Shown: piece by piece, positions 1-11,467 of the stretch
How the letters are laid out: every line of letters starts with the position of its first letter
Position numbering within the stretch: the first letter of the stretch is position 1
Origin: Nitrososphaeraceae archaeon
GTDB taxonomy: Archaea > Thermoproteota > Nitrososphaeria > Nitrososphaerales > Nitrososphaeraceae
Direction of reading: 5' to 3'
Assembly (NCBI GenBank): GCA_030038695.1
Contig: JASHSN010000393.1
Location: forward strand, 1-13,617
DNA: 13,617 nt
Notes under the pieces: model-generated
What the model saw: only the letters and a program-made list of their open reading frames with translations
Database searches by the model: none
What the model was told of the DNA's origin: nothing
Program-made: the position numbers and the translations under genes

Positions 1-74
1 TCTATAATACCAAAATCTAGAATAATCTCACCTCGTCTAACTAATGATTCATTGTAGGAAGCCCAGTTAAACAC
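1..74 (-). CDS. N-terminus of an IS5-like DDE transposase, cut by window edge
   Basis: Reading leftwards from a GTG at 74 the frame stays open to the window edge and gives 24 residues including NWASYNESLVRRGEIILDFG. From memory, this matches the opening of IS5-group transposases of archaea (form: W..YN.SLVRRGEI....F...). An in-frame TAA about 20 bases before the GTG limits the start. Only the N-terminus is visible, so I cannot tell whether the element is intact, and no clear terminal inverted repeat was identified. The family is recalled from the motif, not from a search. Confidence 0.5.
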   Translation of the reverse strand, partial: MFNWASYNESLVRRGEIILDFGII

Positions 75-92
75 ATGAAATGTCAGTTTAGG

Positions 93-260
93 TTAGCTAA
101 ACGTAGCTTGGTCAACTAAACCCGACAAATATGATAGTAATTTATGCAACAAAGCTTCATAACCGATTACTGATGGCTGACGCAGGGTCTTGCGCCGTTT
201 CACAGACACAATCTTATACAAATACGAAACAATCTGCATGCCTGGCTGCACTGTAAACAT
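93..260 (-). CDS. possible small basic protein, 55 aa, unrecognised
   Basis: An ATG at 260 opens a 55-codon frame ending in TAA at 93-95. The product has a basic patch (VKRRKTLRQ, about residues 20-28) followed by a Leu-rich stretch (EALLHKLLSYLSGLV). I recognise no family. It lies 18 bp upstream of the transposase fragment on the same strand and could be a fragment of a neighbouring mobile gene or a chance frame. No convincing TATA box or ribosome binding site was found. Confidence 0.18.
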   Translation of the reverse strand: MFTVQPGMQIVSYLYKIVSVKRRKTLRQPSVIGYEALLHKLLSYLSGLVDQATFS

Positions 261-2876: not shown

Positions 2877-3395
2877 TCACTTTTGTTGTTCTCTTCTTCC
2901 TATTCTAGAATAGTAAACTACGGTTATCATTATAACCCCAATTATAATGTAGTAATTTGTTGGAGGACTAAGCGTCTTAGTAACTAATCCCAATTTTGGA
3001 ATTACGTATACCACCTTACCAATGTAATTCTGTTCTTTAAGAGGATAATCGATATATGGTATTGAACCATCGTTTGCATCCCCTTTCGTTGTAATAACTC
3101 TACCTTCAATTCCTGTAGAAATGTGAACAATTCTATGAACGATAGTCTCGTGTTGCTCATTCGGAATTAACGAGCCAGGTGACTTAAATACTATGATATC
3201 TCCAACCTTCAAATTGCTAAAAGGTATATTGTGATTTATAATTACAAAATCACTGATGTTCAGAGTGGGTATCATACTCCCACTAGCAACGATGAAGAAG
3301 GGATTAAAGGTGCCAAATGCGATTCTAATTCCAACATACATTATTGCAATGGCGATGACTATGATAGCCACATAAATAAAAACTTTTGAAATCAA
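2877..3395 (-). CDS. signal peptidase I, archaeal/ER type (S26B)
   Basis: Membrane-bound serine protease that removes signal peptides from exported proteins on the outer face of the membrane. Residues 5-27 form an N-terminal membrane anchor. Motif ASGSMIPTL at 37-45 carries the nucleophile Ser40. VHRIVH at 86-91 supplies His87, which replaces the Lys general base of bacterial enzymes and marks the archaeal/SEC11 type. KGDAND at 104-109 contains the conserved Asp106. A second membrane segment lies at about 147-163, followed by a basic tail. At 172 residues it has normal archaeal length. The TTG start comes directly after an in-frame stop and has a TATA box 25-33 bp upstream, so a leaderless mRNA is likely; the next possible start (Met19) would remove the anchor. 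It is transcribed away from the truncated macro-domain gene. The two small secreted proteins at 9137 and 9841 are plausible substrates. Confidence 0.93.
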   Translation of the reverse strand: MISKVFIYVAIIVIAIAIMYVGIRIAFGTFNPFFIVASGSMIPTLNISDFVIINHNIPFSNLKVGDIIVFKSPGSLIPNEQHETIVHRIVHISTGIEGRVITTKGDANDGSIPYIDYPLKEQNYIGKVVYVIPKLGLVTKTLSPPTNYYIIIGVIMITVVYYSRIGRREQQK

Positions 3396-4848: not shown

Positions 4849-6057
4849 ATGTACAATCAAACTCATAACGACGAGCACTTGCTCCCAAAAGCATATTTTA
4901 CTCCATACGGAGTCGGTCTAGGTCATGCAAGCAGATTGATAATGATAGCACAGCAGCTTCAGAATTTAGGCGTCGATTTCAGATTTTCCTCTTCTGGAGA
5001 GGCCGTAGGTTACATCTCGATGCATGGCTACGATTGTATTTCAGTTCCGCCAGTTGAATTGGCGTGGAGCTCCGATGGAAGTTTTTCCATACAAGACAGC
5101 ATAGCAAAAATTCCGTATGTGTTCATAAATTTGGCTAGGCAGGTAAATATCGAAGCCCGCAATATGTTAGATTACGAGCCTCAAATCATTGTTTCTGATA
5201 CTAGGCTGTCCTCGCTCTTATCAGCTAGATTATTAGGAATACCGTCTTTAGTTATTTTGAATCAGATAAAATTATTACTCTCACCTAGGCTAAGAGAGCT
5301 AAAGATCGCAAGGACTTATGAGAAATTAAACGGTGAATTTCTAGGTATTATGTGGTCACTGGCAGACAAAATTCTCGTTCCTGACTTGCCTCCACCCTAT
5401 ACGCTAGCAGAGCACAACATATGGGACACCAACACGGTTGCTGGAAAATTAGAATATGTAGGCCTTACTACACCAAAAATCCATATCAGCGAAGAACAGA
5501 TTAACAAGGTTGCTCAATTTCTCGGTTTGCGAAGAAACAAACCAATTATTTTTGTCCACGTGAGTGGTCCTAGCAATACTCGAATGCCGCTGATCAGAGC
5601 AGCAATAGATGCATGCAAAGTCCTTCAATCTGATATTCAGTACGTTATTTCCGAAGGCAACCCGAAAGGAGATGCCAATCCGAAAAAACTATGCGGCTCA
5701 GGATGGTACTATGAATGGTGCCCAGTTAGAGACGAGATTTTTGCGATGAGTAATGCCTTGGTACTGCGAGGCGGACATGCCGCTCTATCGCAGGCAATTC
5801 AATTTGGGAAACCCATCCTCACTATTCCGATAGAAAATCATGGTGAACAATTAGGTAACTCACAGAAAATAGCAAAAATTGGCACGGGTATCATGTTAAA
5901 CGCAAAACGACTTAACGCGAGTCAAATTGCGAATGCAATAAATGAAGTCATCAACGATTCACAGTATCAGCAGAAGGCAAATCACCTTAAGAAACTCACA
6001 GAAAAATTAAACGGAATCGAGAATGTCGTGAAGATAATTTGGTCCTATCTCAAATGA
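4849..6057 (+). CDS. GT-B fold glycosyltransferase (MurG/UDP-glycosyltransferase-like)
   Basis: Predicted to transfer a sugar from a nucleotide-sugar donor to a lipid, glycan or small acceptor at the cytosolic side of the membrane. The N-terminal Rossmann lobe opens with FTPYGVGLGHASR at residues 17-29, the Gly-rich acceptor-side loop of MurG/GT28-like enzymes. The C-terminal donor-binding lobe (about 230-402) has RGGHAALSQAIQFGKPILTI at 307-326 and EQLGN at 333-337, matching the nucleotide-diphosphate binding signature of the superfamily. No membrane segment is evident. The length of 402 residues is typical. GGAGGG at 4829-4834 precedes the ATG by 14 bases, a long spacing, and a hairpin lies just upstream, so unlike its neighbours this gene appears to have a leader. 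Its last 51 bp overlap the convergent gene at 6007. Donor and acceptor cannot be deduced; the nucleotidyltransferase at 928 is a possible donor supplier. Confidence 0.88.
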   Translation: MYNQTHNDEHLLPKAYFTPYGVGLGHASRLIMIAQQLQNLGVDFRFSSSGEAVGYISMHGYDCISVPPVELAWSSDGSFSIQDSIAKIPYVFINLARQVNIEARNMLDYEPQIIVSDTRLSSLLSARLLGIPSLVILNQIKLLLSPRLRELKIARTYEKLNGEFLGIMWSLADKILVPDLPPPYTLAEHNIWDTNTVAGKLEYVGLTTPKIHISEEQINKVAQFLGLRRNKPIIFVHVSGPSNTRMPLIRAAIDACKVLQSDIQYVISEGNPKGDANPKKLCGSGWYYEWCPVRDEIFAMSNALVLRGGHAALSQAIQFGKPILTIPIENHGEQLGNSQKIAKIGTGIMLNAKRLNASQIANAINEVINDSQYQQKANHLKKLTEKLNGIENVVKIIWSYLK

Positions 6058-7311
6058 AATAGTTTTCATATTCTTTTTAGCGGATTCTGTCATTTTGTTT
6101 ATTGTCGTCCTGTATTTCGAATAGTCTTGTCTAGTGAACCTTATCATCCTATTCATCATGGAACTTTTGTCTGAAAATAACGTAAGCATATTTGTTTTTT
6201 CAATCCCCAGTTCCTCGGCAATATCATTGATACCCTGACTCGGTAGCAACAACGGCATCCAAGGAATCTTCTTCGAGGTCAGGATTTCTTTGAAAGTTGA
6301 TTGTATCAACCAAAGAGGATGGGTCACAACGCTCAAGGGAACGACGACTCCTTTTCCCTTCATCAAGGTCAGAATTTGAGTTGTAACGATCTCTTGCAGA
6401 ACTGCTTTATGACTGCTTTCTAGCTGCCGTATCATCGTCTTATGTATTCGTCGTCCATTTTTTTTGGGATTGAGAATTTTGCCAAAATCATCCCCGTAGT
6501 CTAATTCTACTAGTCGAATCGAATAATTCTTGATGCTCATCTTATTAACTATCATACCTAAAATCTTCAAATTTTTTCTAAGGTTGCAGTCGTCAGTATA
6601 AACAACGACTATCTCAGGAAAAAAGCCACACTTTAGTGTTATCATACAAGAAATGGCGGACAAGGTATCGTGTATACTGCACAATACTTTTTCCCCTTGA
6701 CATGCAAATGGAAGACCGCCTGGTCCTATATCTGTTTCAATAGTAACGTAAGCCGATTTCTTGCCTACGAAAATCTCAATAAGTCGGTCAGCTTCTAATT
6801 CATTTTTCGCCGGACGTGCAGATGATGAGTAATAACGTGAGGAGGAAATTGAAGAAACTGGAGAAAAAGTATAAGGTCTACGAGAAGATGAGAATGATGA
6901 TGATTGCAACGCTGACGTGAGATCGCCTGTAGAGGCAAATTCTAGATCTCTAGATTTATAATTGATTTTTGCATTACTGCTTATATGAACTTTAACATAG
7001 AATTTCTCGTTGGGTAAAACTTTCAATTTTCCGATCTTAACAACCTCTGCTTCGATATCTTGAAACTGGATACTAGACACCTTTTTTGCGATAGCAACTT
7101 TGTCAATCCCAAACATCCCACTTGTAACCCCAGCACCCCTTACTACGTCATCCATGTCAAAAACAAGCCAATCGGTTTCAATGACAGTATTCTTTAGTTC
7201 GATTTTCTTTGACTGAAACTGCTTCTTAATATTGGCAATCAGTTTATCAATTCTAGCCAGAGAAAAACGTCCAGGAAACACTAACAATACTGTTCTGCCT
7301 TGAATGCTCAC
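6007..7311 (-). CDS. ThiI-like THUMP protein with degenerate PP-loop and Ser-rich insert
   Basis: The layout follows ThiI, which activates tRNA U8 with ATP for 4-thiouridine formation. Residues 1-55 resemble the N-terminal ferredoxin-like domain, about 56-190 a THUMP domain (KFYVKVHIS, FVGKKSAYV) and 196-415 an adenylation-type domain starting with GPGGLPFACQGEKVL, as ThiI has GPGGLPVGxxGKVL. Where ThiI carries the ATP pyrophosphatase loop SGGIDSPVA this protein has CSIHDTLSA (211-219), with both glycines gone. The later block VVPLSVVTHP (323-332) replaces ThiI's GESLGQVASQT region, while MPLLLPSQGINDIAEELGI (352-370) keeps the shape of the PLIGxDKxEII block. ATP chemistry is therefore unlikely; RNA or protein binding through THUMP may remain. 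A Ser-rich low-complexity stretch (about 132-165) interrupts the THUMP region. The GTG start is embedded in GAGGTGA, a good anti-16S match, so the true start could lie slightly downstream. Its 3' end overlaps the glycosyltransferase gene; the C39/TPR gene lies 67 bp upstream. Confidence 0.8.
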   Translation of the reverse strand: MSIQGRTVLLVFPGRFSLARIDKLIANIKKQFQSKKIELKNTVIETDWLVFDMDDVVRGAGVTSGMFGIDKVAIAKKVSSIQFQDIEAEVVKIGKLKVLPNEKFYVKVHISSNAKINYKSRDLEFASTGDLTSALQSSSFSSSRRPYTFSPVSSISSSRYYSSSARPAKNELEADRLIEIFVGKKSAYVTIETDIGPGGLPFACQGEKVLCSIHDTLSAISCMITLKCGFFPEIVVVYTDDCNLRKNLKILGMIVNKMSIKNYSIRLVELDYGDDFGKILNPKKNGRRIHKTMIRQLESSHKAVLQEIVTTQILTLMKGKGVVVPLSVVTHPLWLIQSTFKEILTSKKIPWMPLLLPSQGINDIAEELGIEKTNMLTLFSDKSSMMNRMIRFTRQDYSKYRTTINKMTESAKKNMKTISFEIGPNYLHDILDSV

Positions 7312-7378: not shown

Positions 7379-8338
7379 TTAGAGCTGACCTATAGCATCT
7401 TCAATATTCTTTTTATCTGCTGCGTAGGGTGTTTGTTCCAGGTATGTTAGGAGGTCGTCTTTGGCACCAGAGGTATTTTCAAGTTGTAACCGGGTAAATG
7501 CACGATTCTTATATATTGGTCCAAATCTATGTGGATTAACAGCGATTGCCTTCGTATAATAATCTTCAGCTTTGAGATAATCTTTGTTTTTTAAATAATA
7601 GTTCCCTAGGCCACGATAAGCAAGATAATATTTGGGGTTTAGTGTGATTGTCTTCTGGTAGCAAGAAATGGCATCCTCTGAATTAATCTCATTATATATC
7701 CCTCCCAACAAGCACCACGGTTGAGGGTTGTCATTGTCCAATTCGATAGCTACTCGCAGCTTTTCCATGGCATCATTAATGTTTCCCTGCTGATGAAGTT
7801 TTTCTGCTTCAAAACAGATTCTGTTTGAATCACGAAACCTCAAGATGTCATTTCTGAAAATATCTTTCATATCCTTTGGGATCAACACTACTGTAATCAT
7901 ATCGTCTTGTTCCCAATCCAGCTCAAACTGAAATTCAGGAATAGCTCCTATAGTATCGGGTTCTGGTACATAAGTTATGATTCTGCGTTCTTCAGAATCG
8001 TAGCCTGATACAATGGATGCATGCTGTACTGTTTCGTGAATCCCAGGGAGGATAATGATTGAGGGAATACCTTGATCTATTCTTTTTTTTAGATCGTTTA
8101 TTGATCCTTTGTAAATGTATGTCATGAACCCAAGTTTTTCAGCAAGCTCTATTCCCTCCATCATTATAGGGCCTTTCATCCCGGGATATTTCTGGCCGAG
8201 TTTCAAAGCCTTATCTAACTCGATTTCCTCACCCCAATATCTCAAAACTACATTGATGACTAACGGAAGGCAGATGTTTTCTTCTGTCTTACTAACCAGT
8301 GGAAGTGTTATCATATGCTTTTCTGGCTGAGGTGTCAC
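7379..8338 (-). CDS. C39 peptidase-like domain fused to TPR repeats
   Basis: Residues 10-155 resemble the papain-like C39 family: ICLPLVINVVLRYWG (22-36) matches the DCGxAALxMxxxYYG helix with Cys23 as nucleophile, and QHASIVSGYD (105-114) matches the HxVVVxGYD strand with His106. The usual Gln ahead of the Cys (oxyanion hole) is not at its place and the acidic third residue is not clear, so activity is uncertain. Residues 170-305 form about four TPR units, typified by AISCYQKTITLNPKYYLAY and AEDYYTKAIAVNP, a protein-binding scaffold. No signal peptide or membrane segment is seen, so it is likely cytosolic. The start is taken as GTG 8338, with AT-rich TTTTTATTTG 23-32 bp upstream; ATG 8314 (codon 9) is an alternative. 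It is followed after 67 bp on the same strand by the ThiI-like gene, suggesting co-expression. Confidence 0.82.
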   Translation of the reverse strand: MTPQPEKHMITLPLVSKTEENICLPLVINVVLRYWGEEIELDKALKLGQKYPGMKGPIMMEGIELAEKLGFMTYIYKGSINDLKKRIDQGIPSIIILPGIHETVQHASIVSGYDSEERRIITYVPEPDTIGAIPEFQFELDWEQDDMITVVLIPKDMKDIFRNDILRFRDSNRICFEAEKLHQQGNINDAMEKLRVAIELDNDNPQPWCLLGGIYNEINSEDAISCYQKTITLNPKYYLAYRGLGNYYLKNKDYLKAEDYYTKAIAVNPHRFGPIYKNRAFTRLQLENTSGAKDDLLTYLEQTPYAADKKNIEDAIGQL

Positions 8339-8360
8339 GTAGGAAGGTATGCCTTTTAAT

Positions 8361-8370
8361 CAAATAAAAA
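8361..8370 (-). promoter_or_regulatory. probable TATA box of the C39/TPR gene
   Basis: On the minus strand TTTTTATTTG lies 23-32 bp before the GTG at 8338, suitable for a leaderless transcript that would probably continue through the ThiI-like gene. Confidence 0.4.
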
Positions 8371-8403
8371 TCATTCCTGCAGCACCACCGCCAATCAAAG
8401 ACG

Positions 8404-8526
8404 ATGGGACAACTAAAAGAGAGAAAAGACGACAGCAAGGTTCTTAATAATAAATTAAAAAAAGTACCCGGGGTAAGGACACGGTCATCCTATTCCAGCA
8501 CCATATGGGATTTCGGGTATATTTAA
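8404..8526 (+). CDS. possible small basic protein, 40 aa, unrecognised
   Basis: An ATG at 8404 opens a 40-codon frame ending in TAA at 8524-8526. The product starts MGQLKERKDDSKVLNNKLKK and is strongly basic, ending in an aromatic tail (TIWDFGYI). It lies in the gap upstream of the minus-strand C39/TPR gene. No Shine-Dalgarno sequence or well-spaced TATA box precedes it. A strong TATA-like tract (TATATTTAAATAAAA, 8518-8532) overlaps its end and could start a separate plus-strand transcript near 8550, with no obvious coding frame after it. Real small protein, relic or chance cannot be decided here. Confidence 0.22.
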   Translation: MGQLKERKDDSKVLNNKLKKVPGVRTRSSYSSTIWDFGYI

Positions 8527-8794
8527 ATAAAAGGTGTGGAAGGACTACGCAGAATTGTGATACAAAGCTAAAGATCCAAAATGCATAAATTGAAATGTTG
8601 GGTCTGAACAAGAAGGAATATACTCATTAACTAAAGATTAGTAGTATTAACATAGCGGACGGTCTTTGTTTTCCAGCTTCGAAATTATTGGGGATTCTGT
8701 TGATGTTGATGGAACTTAAGGTCAGGTCTTGCTAACTCCGACATAAACTTATACCATTTCGCTATTCGTCTGTTTGAGATTTGCAAGTTAAAGT

Positions 8795-8972
8795 TCAAGT
8801 GGTCTTAATCGACCACTTTCTCATCCATTGTAGTAATCCTATGACAGACTCGACAAGTTCCTGTCCCTGGTCTGTTAGTGGGTATTTACTATGGGTGGGA
8901 TTTCATTAAATGACTTGTCTTTTCTAGAAATCTATCATCATTGTAGTCAATCATCGTAGTTTTGCCTATTGG
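8795..8972 (-). pseudogene. fossil of an HxlR-type winged-helix regulator
   Basis: The minus-strand frame ending in TGA at 8795-8797 reads YPLTDQGQELVESVIGLLQW followed by MRKWSIKTT, a close fit to the HxlR C-terminus (YxLTxxGxxL...L..W). Just upstream, in other frames, are KDKSFNEIPP (compare the KRFNEL helix) and PIGKTTMI (compare IGGKWTMLIL). The order is right for HxlR but the pieces sit in different frames, stops intervene and the central recognition-helix region (about 35 residues) is missing. HxlR proteins are dimeric repressors or activators of about 110 residues; this copy cannot work. The gap continues upstream to about 9107 and downstream to 8533 without another gene that I can see. 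Confidence 0.6.
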
Positions 8973-9107
8973 TAAGAGATATGAAAGAGAACTTTACGAT
9001 TTAGTCTAGGGATTTTCTTTAGTTAAATCGTTGATACACTATAATGCTACTACACTTAGAAATAACTAGTACTCTGTTCCATTATCTAGATTATTAGTTT
9101 AAAATGC

Positions 9108-9115
9108 CTATATCT
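9108..9115 (+). promoter_or_regulatory. TATA box of the Cys/His-repeat secreted protein gene
   Basis: CTATATCT lies 22-29 bp before the ATG at 9137, which has no Shine-Dalgarno sequence. This fits leaderless transcription starting at or near the ATG. Confidence 0.5.
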
Positions 9116-9136
9116 ATTATTTCGTTTAATGGTTAA

Positions 9137-9415
9137 ATGGGTTCAAAGACATCCATTTCTTTCATTGGTATCACTATTGCAATACTAGTATTACTGTATA
9201 CGGAAGCTTACTTACCTGAAACCCAGATCGGATTAGCGCTTGGCTTCAACCTCAATAACTTACCCTGTGTATTGATACATGGAGGACACGTTCATTGTGC
9301 CGAAGATTACCTACCCGAAACCCAGAGCGGATTAGCGTCCATATACTACCACGGCTTCAACCTCAATAACTTACCATGCGTATGGACACATGGAGGACAC
9401 CTTCATTGTGCATAA
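9137..9415 (+). CDS. small secreted protein with duplicated CxxxHGGHxHC unit
   Basis: Residues 6-22 are a hydrophobic signal sequence or membrane anchor, with a possible cleavage near TEA-YLPE (residue 24). The rest is one unit repeated twice: residues 25-55 and 58-92 each begin YLPETQ, contain GFNLNNLPCV and end in HGGHxHCA. Each unit has two Cys and three His in the pattern C-x3-H-G-G-H-x-H-C (C44, H48, H51, H53, C54; and C81, H85, H88, H90, C91). That looks like a metal site (Cu, Zn or Fe) or a disulfide-closed loop outside the cell. I recognise no family and assign no function. The units differ by a short insertion (SIYYH) in the second. The ATG has a TATA box at leaderless distance. The Gly/His-rich secreted protein at 9841 lies 425 bp downstream on the same strand with its own promoter. 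Confidence 0.7.
   Translation: MGSKTSISFIGITIAILVLLYTEAYLPETQIGLALGFNLNNLPCVLIHGGHVHCAEDYLPETQSGLASIYYHGFNLNNLPCVWTHGGHLHCA
9209..9412 (+). repeat. tandem duplication inside the secreted-protein gene
   Basis: Two coding units, 9209-9301 and 9308-9412, are nearly identical at DNA level, sharing ACCTCAATAACTTACC and CATGGAGGACAC among other blocks. The second has a 12-base in-frame insertion (about 9338-9349). The close DNA match indicates a recent in-frame duplication rather than convergence at protein level. Confidence 0.85.
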
Positions 9416-9420
9416 TGTGA

Positions 9421-9759
9421 GTTGTAAAACATGGATTTGGAAACATGGACTTGGACATACAGGATTCTCACTTCTATCTAGATGACGGCAAACTCTGCTT
9501 CCTAGATATGGCTAAGTATCCACTCAAGGCCTGGAGATTGACTCTTTGCACAAAGCCATGTCATTGGATTTGTAACTTTGCCCTATGGACAGACCATATT
9601 TCTTAAATAAATGCATACGGAGTGCGGTACCTATTGAAATTGCTATACCAGGAACATTATAAGGATGTTGGTTTGAGTGTCGGAGAAAATACTAAAATTT
9701 CTCATGTCAACAAGAAGGAATTTGACCATAATGTTTCTAATGAAAATATCATAGTTTGA
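9421..9759 (+). pseudogene. possible decayed gene: long frame with a single stop
   Basis: One plus-strand frame is open from 9421 to 9759 apart from a single TAA at 9604-9606. The first part (usable ATG at 9445, 53 residues) contains DSHFYLDDGKLCFLDMAKYP and a Cys-rich patch CTKPCHWIC. The second part (GTG at 9622, 45 residues) reads YLLKLLYQEHYKDVGLSVGE and ends in a polar Asn-rich tail. I recognise no family; the first part faintly recalls the middle of TnpB-type transposases, but not enough to claim it. Options are a pseudogene with one nonsense mutation, two tiny genes, or a chance frame. Confidence 0.28.
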
Positions 9760-9810
9760 GTACACCGACGATTTCTACTATATTTCTACCAACTGCTGTT
9801 TGACACTCTT

Positions 9811-9820
9811 GATATATCAT
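9811..9820 (+). promoter_or_regulatory. TATA box of the Gly/His-rich secreted protein gene
   Basis: GATATATCAT lies 21-30 bp before the ATG at 9841 and no ribosome binding site is present, indicating a leaderless transcript. Confidence 0.55.
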
Positions 9821-9840
9821 AACAGGGAATAGTATTTAGA

Positions 9841-10200
9841 ATGAATACCAAGATACCAATATTCATTGCTGTTACTATTGGCTTGTCCATTCTGACTACA
9901 AGTGTTTCTGTTAATTCTGTTATTGCAAAAGATGATTGGGGATTTGGAGGGCATGGAGGAATGGGTTACGGAGGAATGGGATATGGAGGGCATGGAGGAA
10001 ATGGATTTGGAGGAATGAGCTACGGTGGGGTAGGGTCAGTAATCCAAGAACAAGTAGATACTGGTAATCCCAACCTAGACAAAGCAATTAACAAATTCTA
10101 CAATTGTCTATCGGACGCACACGAGGACCCACCAACTTTCCAAAAAGCAGATGGCTGTTATTATCAAACTTTAGGTAGTAATGGCGGTATGCAGACTTAA
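9841..10200 (+). CDS. secreted Gly/His-rich repeat protein
   Basis: Residues 1-29 form a classical signal peptide (Lys4, hydrophobic core 5-20, likely cleavage VIA-KDD after 29). Residues 34-65 are built of short Gly-Gly repeats of the type GYGGMGYGGHGG, with Gly, Met, Tyr and His. The C-terminal part (66-119) is ordinary sequence with Cys89 (FYNCLSDA) and Cys106 (ADGCYYQT), which could pair outside the cell. Such Gly/Tyr/His tracts are flexible and can bind metals or pack into surface layers; no catalytic motif is seen and I do not know the family. The His and Met residues within the repeats leave copper binding open, as inference only. The ATG has a TATA box at leaderless distance. A frame overlapping the 3' end (10181-10462) is not supported as a gene. 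Confidence 0.75.
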   Translation: MNTKIPIFIAVTIGLSILTTSVSVNSVIAKDDWGFGGHGGMGYGGMGYGGHGGNGFGGMSYGGVGSVIQEQVDTGNPNLDKAINKFYNCLSDAHEDPPTFQKADGCYYQTLGSNGGMQT

Positions 10201-10852
10201 ACCACAAGAAACTCTCTGGTTCAAGTACTACGAAGTTGTAGGGAATGTGTTTCCTCGAACTCAGTGTACCGGCTGGAATGTGCTTCCCTTATTACGCGCG
10301 CGCGACAATGGTCCAATTCTATTATTGACATATTGTGGCCAGAGTTTAGTCGGGGATTTTGAGCTGGATATGTCGCATTGCAGAATGATAGAGCGAGCCC
10401 AGACATGCCAAACACCCTACACTATAGTCAGATTGGTGCAGATGACTATGGCAGTAGTTTGATGAGAACTACCTAAGAACAATATTGTTTGTACTTTATA
10501 ACAATTGTAGTTTACTCGTCGAATGTACTATTTGAACCACATAAGAACAACCTAATAACTGTTGATGTTCTCTCGGAAAAAGACACGTAAATTTCTTAAT
10601 TCGGTACGGAAAGTATTAGGCTGTCCTACAGTTTAGTATGTAGCCCAATCTGCTAAAGAAGGTATCGTTATCATGCTTGGTTGTTTTTGTGCGAACAAGA
10701 TAGCAAGCCATGCAAGTTGCGATAGAAGAGTTTCATTGGTTTTCCATTTATGCATGGAATAACCTCAACTTCAGGAATAAGTACGTAGCACCATTAACAC
10801 GTCTTTACTATTAATATTTAGTACCGTTATGACAAACAGAATAGAAATACTG
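10201..10852. other. gene-poor stretch
   Basis: No well-supported gene. A plus-strand frame 10181-10462 overlaps the previous gene's end and shows no domain, promoter or ribosome binding site. A minus-strand frame 10633-10755 (ATG at 10755, 40 residues, beginning MHKWKTNETLLSQLAWLAIL) is short and unrecognised, though protein-like in composition. A GCGCGCGCG tract at about 10297-10305 is unusual in this AT-rich DNA. Confidence 0.45.
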
Positions 10853-11467
10853 TTATATGTTCAAAAACCTCGACAATATATACAAGCCATCATCCCCGCT
10901 TTTTTCCGGGTGGAATTGTGTTCCGAACATTTTCTTTTCTTTGTGCGAAAAGACCTCGTGTTCACATTCTAAAGAAGATGCTAGAGACTCGAAGCCTTCA
11001 GGCAATTTTGCAACACAATAGCGATGGCTCTCATAGACGAAGAGGGTCTTGTCTGCTCTGATTGCAGAAAGTAGGGAATTTGATTTCAACACTGTTATTG
11101 GAATAGTATCCTGAACAGATCTAGTCATTTTGCGGATAGATCCGCCGAATGTTAGCGCAAGAATCTCTGCGCCATAGCATATCCCAAGTAAGGGTATATT
11201 ACGTTTAAAACACTGTTTTATGATGCGAGAATTTACGAAGTTAATTTCCCTGGCGTTCTTGCGCCTCCCAGATAGAATTACTCTGTCATAGGAAAAATTG
11301 TTCCCCCTTTCATTATCAGTTAAGTCCAAACAGTTACTTTTTATCACGACATAATTAGCTCCCAATTTACTAAGACATGTAACAATATCCCTTGTAAAGG
11401 GAGACACATTATCTACAACAAGAATTGTTTGCGCCTTTTTTTTGTTAAATGTCATTCTTATCAACAA
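10853..11467 (-). CDS. class I glutamine amidotransferase (GuaA-N/GATase1-like)
   Basis: Predicted to hydrolyse glutamine and pass ammonia to a partner, or to act on a related gamma-glutamyl substrate. The nucleophile elbow is LGICYGAEIL at residues 94-103 with Cys97, and the catalytic pair His186 and Glu188 is in FGTQFHPEKSG at 181-191. The closest family type is the glutaminase subunit of archaeal GMP synthase. Two positions differ from that family: LSGRRKN at 65-71 replaces the LSGGP turn, and GAE replaces GMQ after the Cys. It is therefore likelier a paralogue with its own partner than the housekeeping GMP synthase subunit; no synthetase gene lies nearby. The start may be TTG 11467 or ATG 11455. 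It follows the UPF0182-family gene on the same strand after only 24 bp, which suggests an operon. Confidence 0.87.
   Translation of the reverse strand: MLIRMTFNKKKAQTILVVDNVSPFTRDIVTCLSKLGANYVVIKSNCLDLTDNERGNNFSYDRVILSGRRKNAREINFVNSRIIKQCFKRNIPLLGICYGAEILALTFGGSIRKMTRSVQDTIPITVLKSNSLLSAIRADKTLFVYESHRYCVAKLPEGFESLASSLECEHEVFSHKEKKMFGTQFHPEKSGDDGLYILSRFLNI

Follow-up and report, generated by a model that had tools for sequence, protein, structure and literature searches.

Does the short open reading frame (ORF) at 9137..9415 of a 13,617-nucleotide stretch of archaeal DNA (referred to here, in its whole length, as the window) encode a genuine protein, and what might a peptide with two copies of a Cys/His motif do for its bearer, a soil archaeon and probably an ammonia oxidizer? 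The initial annotation, made from the letters of the sequence, had described a secreted mini-protein of two recently duplicated units, without a known family, and had thought a role in copper handling conceivable. The features of the gene are the following.

9101..9114, + strand: element resembling a core promoter, AAAATGCCTATATC, whose TATA-like box lies ~28-23 nt ahead of the ATG (copies in the genome)
9137..9415, + strand: ORF of 92 aa with an ATG start, encoding the two-unit peptide (ORF call and homologues)
9137..9238, + strand: 34-codon leader, putatively of Sec type, with presumed cleavage after GLA (profile matches, DNA homology)
9203..9238, + strand: leader end EAYLPETQIGLA, first copy (DNA repeat)
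9266..9298, + strand: unit 1 motif, CVLIHGGHVHC (repeat and subfamily comparison)
9302..9337, + strand: leader end EDYLPETQSGLA, second copy, between the units (DNA repeat)
9377..9409, + strand: unit 2 motif, CVWTHGGHLHC (repeat and subfamily comparison)

The two-unit protein and its relatives

The ORF proved to be as described, with 92 residues, a signal-like leader, and GFNLNNLPCV together with C-x3-H-G-G-H-x-H-C in both units, the motifs occupying residues 44-54 and 81-91. The duplication is equally plain in the DNA, where one repeat of 59 nt (92% identity; 9242-9300 and 9353-9411) and another of 36 nt (89% identity; 9203-9238 and 9302-9337) were found. Since the duplicated block starts within the leader (EAYLPETQIGLA and EDYLPETQSGLA), the presumed signal-cleavage region recurs in unit 2, and because unit 1 lacks four residues that are present in unit 2, SIYY, the repeats are offset by 111 and 99 nt. 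The AlphaFold model of the protein has a mean pLDDT of 51, i.e., it gives no evidence of a fold.

A search with the single sequence found two two-unit proteins, P0001 (87%) and P0002, and the one-unit P0003; in the own genome, a paralogue with one unit lies on contig C262. A profile built from these five proteins (window, C262, and P0001-P0003) added P0004-P0011, bringing the subfamily to 13 proteins. Ten of them (window, C262, and P0001-P0008) are intact and contribute the 14 units that were counted; P0009, P0010, and P0011 (3 of 13), being altered, broken, or truncated, were omitted from the count. Both Cys residues and HGGH are kept in all 14 units, and the third His in 11, the remaining three bearing Arg (both units of P0004 and one of P0008), so that the conserved core is the C...HGGH...C loop and a site of three His is not required. 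The subfamily motif, C-x3-HGGH-x-[HR]-C, is present in 14 of 14 units. Free variation of the Cys and His positions among homologues, which the initial annotation had named as evidence against its reading, is thus absent from the two Cys and HGGH, and some variation exists at the third His. Within P0002, and likewise within P0004, the two units are identical across the ALA...C stretch, which indicates that duplication or gene conversion has recurred and agrees with the recent duplication seen in the window.

To express this constraint in numbers, units 1 and 2 are separated by 3 synonymous changes on 12.8 sites and 3 non-synonymous ones on 47.2, and unit 2 and the C262 unit by 5 synonymous changes on 11.2 sites and 7 non-synonymous ones on 45.8, with both Cys and all three His kept across the three units. 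Substitutions among the units favor synonymous sites. An orphan ORF or a chance motif was rejected, since the relatives and the constraint speak against it. An N-terminal extension starting MPIS was also considered and rejected; it is open in P0001, P0005, and C262 and closed by a TAA in the window, and the MPIS block fits a TATA-type promoter better than a coding extension.

The bare 11-residue motif is not diagnostic. As a DNA pattern it was found at at least 118 genome loci and 8 viral loci; the 126 loci listed contain 114 open frames with the motif, 92 of them in segments of less than 150 aa, and in one of these 114 frames LPC stood close to the motif. A wide spread of the HGGH protein was likewise rejected, since, in a single-sequence search of 70 genomes of the host's family, two genes of the own genome alone matched convincingly (E 3e-61 and 1.9e-9), and 13 further matches (E 0.007-0.7, eight with internal stops) were set aside. 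A related-locus search over genome contigs confirmed none of 153 candidate stretches, and weak matches with stops in G137 and G005 were set aside from a class-wide search.

That the motif protein belongs to no known family was borne out in Pfam and NCBIfam, neither of which gave a match above cut-off. The sole Pfam match of the window protein was HMw1_D2 (E 0.0041, 18.3 bits versus a cut-off of 26.2), the one NCBIfam match lay far below its cut-off (17.1 of 93 bits), and no PDB match fell below E 0.2. None of the paralogues compared (six with NCBIfam and seven with Pfam) matched at E ≤ 0.01. No description of this peptide family was found in the part of the openly licensed PubMed Central literature that was covered, and the terms "histidine" and "secreted" are absent, by term search, from the main text of two Nitrosopolaris papers (PMC10117904 and PMC13006922).

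A leader joined to many different bodies

The initial reading was thus supported as far as it describes a small, apparently secreted protein that has constraint on its Cys/His motif and fits no known family; a large family sharing its leader, and inserted DNA around the gene, had not been seen. When the five-protein profile was run over 400 class genomes, matches at E ≤ 0.01 were found in four. The extra matches in the own genome (C667 and C450) and in the congener G022 covered only about the first 40 positions, i.e., the leader, and were followed by different bodies; those in the other two genomes contained internal stops. In the own genome, a five-row leader profile (A3) matched at 46 places (E ≤ 0.5) and a second one (A4) at 51 (E ≤ 0.01), the latter versus 0-4 in each of 69 other family genomes. 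Because A4, with 39 of its 44 rows from the own genome, leans towards that genome, a further profile (A5) was built without it, from five leaders of other genomes, of which congeners supplied three. A5 gave 39 matches in the own genome, versus 2, 0, 3, 3, and 3 in the congeners G020-G024.

The window leader itself scored E 2.2e-18 with A3 and 1.5e-10 with A4, but it is a row of both profiles; with A5, neither this leader nor that of C262 matched at E ≤ 0.01, and on this comparison the two are divergent family members. Their tie to the family comes from DNA homology across promoter and leader to C667, C168, and C309 (E 2.5e-10 to 3.5e-21). We are highly confident that the window gene is a member of a family of small ORFs that have this leader in common and stand at about 50 places in the own genome. 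Beyond the own genome, a 12-row full-length profile, scored against the 7,986 candidates with most words in common, matched at least 472 database clusters at E ≤ 0.001. The twin HGGH protein represents a single branch of a peptide family that has a common leader and a very large membership. Among the best 120 of the 472 clusters, three are named Bathyarchaeia archaeon and 17 Candidatus Nitrosopolaris, which suggests Nitrosopolaris as the probable genus; P0025, among the 120 matches listed, is labeled a Spy/CpxP chaperone by its source.

For the analysis of bodies, we used the 42 of the 51 places that have a full leader and a readable body. The nine left out were C312 (stop), C371, C679, and C549 (pieces), C185 and C9 (start unclear), and C192, C666, and C160 (different, non-repetitive bodies). 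The own assembly comprises 679 contigs at 78.5% completeness and 5.1% contamination, and some near-identical pairs could be strain variants. Leader ends, set by hand, are of A-x-A type in 36 of the 42 members. Read by eye, the window leader has an MGSK... start, a hydrophobic middle, and a GLA end; it reads as a Sec signal and probably ends after residue 34 (GLA), near a frequent end of DNA homology among the paralogues.

Upstream, AAAATGCCTATATC has three exact copies in the own genome, each ahead of a leader-family gene. When the 41 members with 60 nt upstream were aligned at the ATG, the majorities at -28 to -24 read TATAT (each 51-63%), a position that, in archaea generally, suggests a TATA box and a leaderless transcript. 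Judged by eye, different upstream blocks are common to other members. One of these blocks contains a dyad core, ATTCGTCGAAT, which occurs 16 times (reversed control, 0), seven of these directly before family genes. The dyad TACATTCGTCGAATGTA, or a near variant, also lies upstream of putatively MacB/FtsX-like permease ORFs on C9 and C158 (L278 and L283), and on C426 (L291/L292) a similar permease follows ~300 nt after the dyad site. From its placement, TACATTCGTCGAATGTA might mark a possible regulon of secreted peptides and an ABC exporter. As a partner of the family, the MacB permease was rejected, being found at only 3 of 42 family loci (permease at two, ATPase at one) and not at the window. 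Two regulators that are alike by eye (ESHILxxxRNxVARQIVFFILEH...; L254:888-1472 and L255:3850-4380) sit on contigs holding two leader-family genes each.

Most of the 42 bodies clearly differ from one another. Pooled, they consist of 29.6% G, 13.9% Y, 11.1% H, 8.3% F, 6.6% W, and 5.1% C, with D+E at 1.6% (versus 10.4% in the background) and K+R at 3.5%. The background values for the former are 6.5% G, 4.0% Y, 2.1% H, 4.1% F, 1.2% W, and 1.0% C, as determined from 31 mechanically called, partly overlapping ORFs of ≥150 aa from the loci of this analysis. Body types include WHHGWGW, HGHYFY, YYHHF, GGCCGCFSCC, and FHRGFFG. The 58-residue body of the window protein fits this pattern of a short body rich in Gly, His, aromatic residues, and Cys through its 12% H and four Cys, but it has only 12% G, 5% Y, 2% W, and 3% F and is among the least low-complexity of the set. 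In the congeners, all 11 leader matches (from the four genomes with matches) bear His or His/Tyr tracts.

Gene-sized copies and an inserted segment

We detected DNA homology in 167 of 861 pairs of the 42 members, and in 134 pairs it reached to within 30 nt of the leader end or beyond. It stops within -9..+6 nt of the leader end in 57 of these 134 pairs and at +7..+30 in 33, runs further than +30 in 25, and stops short of the leader end in 19. One member, C361, is a mosaic, being 90% like C179 over -5..119 (leader) and 80% like C594 over 106..201 (body). In the close pairs compared with long flanks, homology was confined to about the length of a gene (~300-650 bp), apart from short isolated pieces in two pairs, and the close copies lie dispersed.

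The bodies of close copies are under purifying selection. In the three pairs of equal body length (C450/C406, C168/C309, and C511/C315), the bodies carry 9, 3, and 2 synonymous changes, respectively, and no non-synonymous ones (neutral P 1.9e-11), and the leaders of the same pairs carry 11 synonymous and 17 non-synonymous changes. The bodies of C201a/C426 differ by 7 synonymous and 5 non-synonymous changes, and those of C222b/C236 by 11.5 and 10.5, plus indels. Summed over the bodies of these five closest pairs (≥85% DNA identity), 32.5 synonymous changes fall on 138.5 sites and 15.5 non-synonymous ones on 587.5, which gives a pN/pS of 0.11 (P 8e-13). In more distant or mosaic pairs, body pN/pS is 0.16-0.48, and the leader range is 0.16 to 2.9. 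These low body values indicate that the bodies are constrained and are not drifting filler.

The window gene itself stands in DNA that three congeners lack at the syntenic place.

8380..10870 (approximate), + strand: extra DNA absent at the syntenic place in three congeners (synteny)
8607..8619, + strand: 13-bp direct repeat AACAAGAAGGAAT, left copy, insertion edge (comparison with C38)
8620..9708, + strand: inserted segment relative to the paralogous loci C38, C8, and C235, which join ~8590-8619 to 9709
9709..9721, + strand: 13-bp direct repeat AACAAGAAGGAAT, right copy (comparison with C38)
9841..10200, + strand: Gly/His-rich gene of 119 aa with a signal-like start, from a multi-copy family, in the same extra DNA

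The order of the window neighbors (AMMECR1, a glycosyltransferase, 6007-7311, a C39-peptidase/TPR gene, a glutamine amidotransferase, and UPF0182) is the same from AMMECR1 to UPF0182 in G024, G021, and G020, the three congeners compared (G022 has no C39 match, and in G023 C39 is split over two contigs). In these three the interval between C39 and the amidotransferase is ~160-200 bp, versus 2.5 kb in the window. In the own genome, C38 (93%) runs from the equivalent of 8590-8619 straight into 9709 with AACAAGAAGGAAT present once, and the more diverged C8 and C235 join the same places. Because C38 joins the edges with a single AACAAGAAGGAAT, the window carries a 1.1-kb insertion with AACAAGAAGGAAT on each side; on the alignment, a deletion in the other copies would be the less simple reading. 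Because shuffling the window edges 1000 times also produced a shared stretch of 13 nt at least once, the strength of the case for an insertion lies in the exact position and the single copy in C38, and not on length alone. Flanking direct repeats as a general rule were ruled out by 12 other cassette edges, where the longest shared stretches (4-6 nt) were no more than in shuffles. Rfam gave no matches in 8300-10900, and no tRNA was found in the insert.

Several observations concern the surrounding genes. The protein of 9841-10200 has GGHGG/GYGG repeats and a Cys-containing tail, gave a Pfam Lamprin match under cut-off (E 5.4e-5), and has relatives, over parts of the stretch, on C38 (93%), C8, C564, C400, and C235 in the own genome. 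The amidotransferase at 10853-11467 has 204 aa and aligns over ~260 positions in the three congeners (53-56% identity), with an internal length difference that adjoins the inserted DNA. At 7379-8338, a C39-type peptidase domain is fused to TPR repeats (79-82% identity in the three congeners), and an S26-type signal peptidase (PF10502) is encoded at 2877-3395, ~5.7 kb from the secreted peptide gene.

What the peptides may do

Among four explanations of the family, the one we prefer is surface or matrix material that binds metal and can be cross-linked; the others are a soluble copper buffer, antimicrobial peptides, and passengers of mobile DNA. Taken whole, the preferred reading, an arsenal of secreted surface or matrix peptides peculiar to this lineage, able to bind metal and to be cross-linked, has a little under an even chance of being right, and its matrix and metal mechanism is put forward more tentatively still. 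According to this mechanism, the peptides would be exported and stay at or near the cell surface, their body His and Cys would bind metal (Cu/Zn), and their aromatic, His, and Gly tracts would self-associate, resulting in a metal-cross-linkable coat or biofilm matrix that also holds metal. Each C-x3-HGGH-x-[HR]-C unit would present its HGGH pair either on a small disulfide-closed loop or as part of a Cys2His2 site, and two units per chain would make the twin HGGH protein a divalent cross-linker. The squid-beak HBPs are alike in their His-/Tyr-rich modular repeats, a likeness of composition with no homology claimed, whereas the archaeal peptides are short and pair one leader with many bodies. 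In HBPs, His deprotonation and Tyr contacts are reported to drive phase separation (PMC6884462). Bolder, and in our judgment rather doubtful, is the proposal that some polar-soil archaea (probably Candidatus Nitrosopolaris) possess a combinatorial secretion repertoire, in which one leader and promoter would be joined to dozens of interchangeable metal-/aromatic-rich bodies as gene-sized cassettes, giving self-associating, metal-binding extracellular material with the HGGH-Cys twin as its disulfide or metal cross-linker.

The alternative that survives best, although we consider it unlikely, is an extracellular Cu/Zn buffer, i.e., soluble chelators serving a copper-rich ammonia-oxidation chain, with HGGH-Cys as the metal site. 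His and Cys are enriched 5.3- and 5.2-fold in the bodies over background, all 42 bodies hold one or the other, and the C and HGGH positions are invariant in the units, all of which such a buffer would account for; however, 9 of the 42 bodies have no His and 12 no Cys, the equally strong enrichment of aromatic residues and Gly is left unexplained, and no copper gene was recognized among the neighbors in the window. Hpn-type bacterial histidine-rich metal-storage proteins are alike in high His content and small size but are cytoplasmic, whereas the archaeal peptides carry an export-type leader. Bufferins, MNIO-modified copper-chelating RiPPs, are alike, by description, in their proposed action as small exported metal-binding peptides (PMC12452194). 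An MNIO-type RiPP was rejected because the enzyme family, PF05114, is absent from six of six genus genomes (it matched 2 of 14 control genomes); with the own assembly at 78.5% completeness, this negative carries more weight for the genus than for the own genome alone. Copper-acquisition genes are reported to be upregulated in biofilms of soil ammonia-oxidizing archaea (PMC12448741), which is in line with a buffer. Copper handling, as first suggested for this gene, is possible.

Secreted antimicrobial or signaling peptides, with one leader and diversified bodies as in animal and plant arsenals, are a less probable reading again. The leader is kept and the bodies are replaced, as the 57 of 134 homologous pairs that stop at the leader end and the mosaic C361 illustrate, and one upstream dyad is common to MacB/FtsX-like permeases in the own genome. 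An antimicrobial role would explain this layout as simply as surface or matrix material does, which counts against the latter. Conotoxin-like precursor families have a conserved leader and a variable body, and are alike in that homology is concentrated in promoter and leader while bodies are replaced; the archaeal bodies, however, are mostly low-complexity, and selection between close copies is purifying and not diversifying (pN/pS 0.11 in five pairs; 0 of 14 changes non-synonymous in three). In addition, K+R make up only 3.5% of body residues, unlike in cationic peptides, and the permease link is absent at the window gene. Finally, mobile-DNA passengers useless to the host, spread as leader cassettes by duplication or transposition and then drifting, would suit the 1.1-kb insertion with its perfect 13-bp direct repeat, the dispersed gene-sized copies, and the broken ones (C312, P0010, P0011, and probably C185), but are very improbable given the purifying selection on bodies, the absence of a terminal inverted repeat (longest shared stretch 7 nt) and of such direct repeats at 12 other cassettes, and an insert whose only other ORF of ≥50 aa wholly inside has 53 aa, too short for a transposase.

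Expansions of tiny secreted-peptide families of such size are familiar in animals and plants. We know of none in ammonia-oxidizing archaea, nor, to our knowledge, has a leader-conserved, body-diversified peptide arsenal been described in any archaeon, so this would be the first if true. If made, the peptides that we interpret as metal-binding surface or matrix material may be a major extracellular product of cold-soil archaea, with consequences for metal holding, attachment, and interactions with neighbors. Without the leader profile, single members look like unrelated hypothetical proteins, and A4 offers a simple handle for finding the family in metatranscriptomes and metaproteomes.

Another small family with a signal-like start was observed in related genera (G067, G065, and G004; L229/L236, L230, L240, and L246). 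Its bodies are of the KKKYxKSQALSQxNxCGNGxxPxNVxCQN type, and one G067 contig carries two copies in opposite directions.
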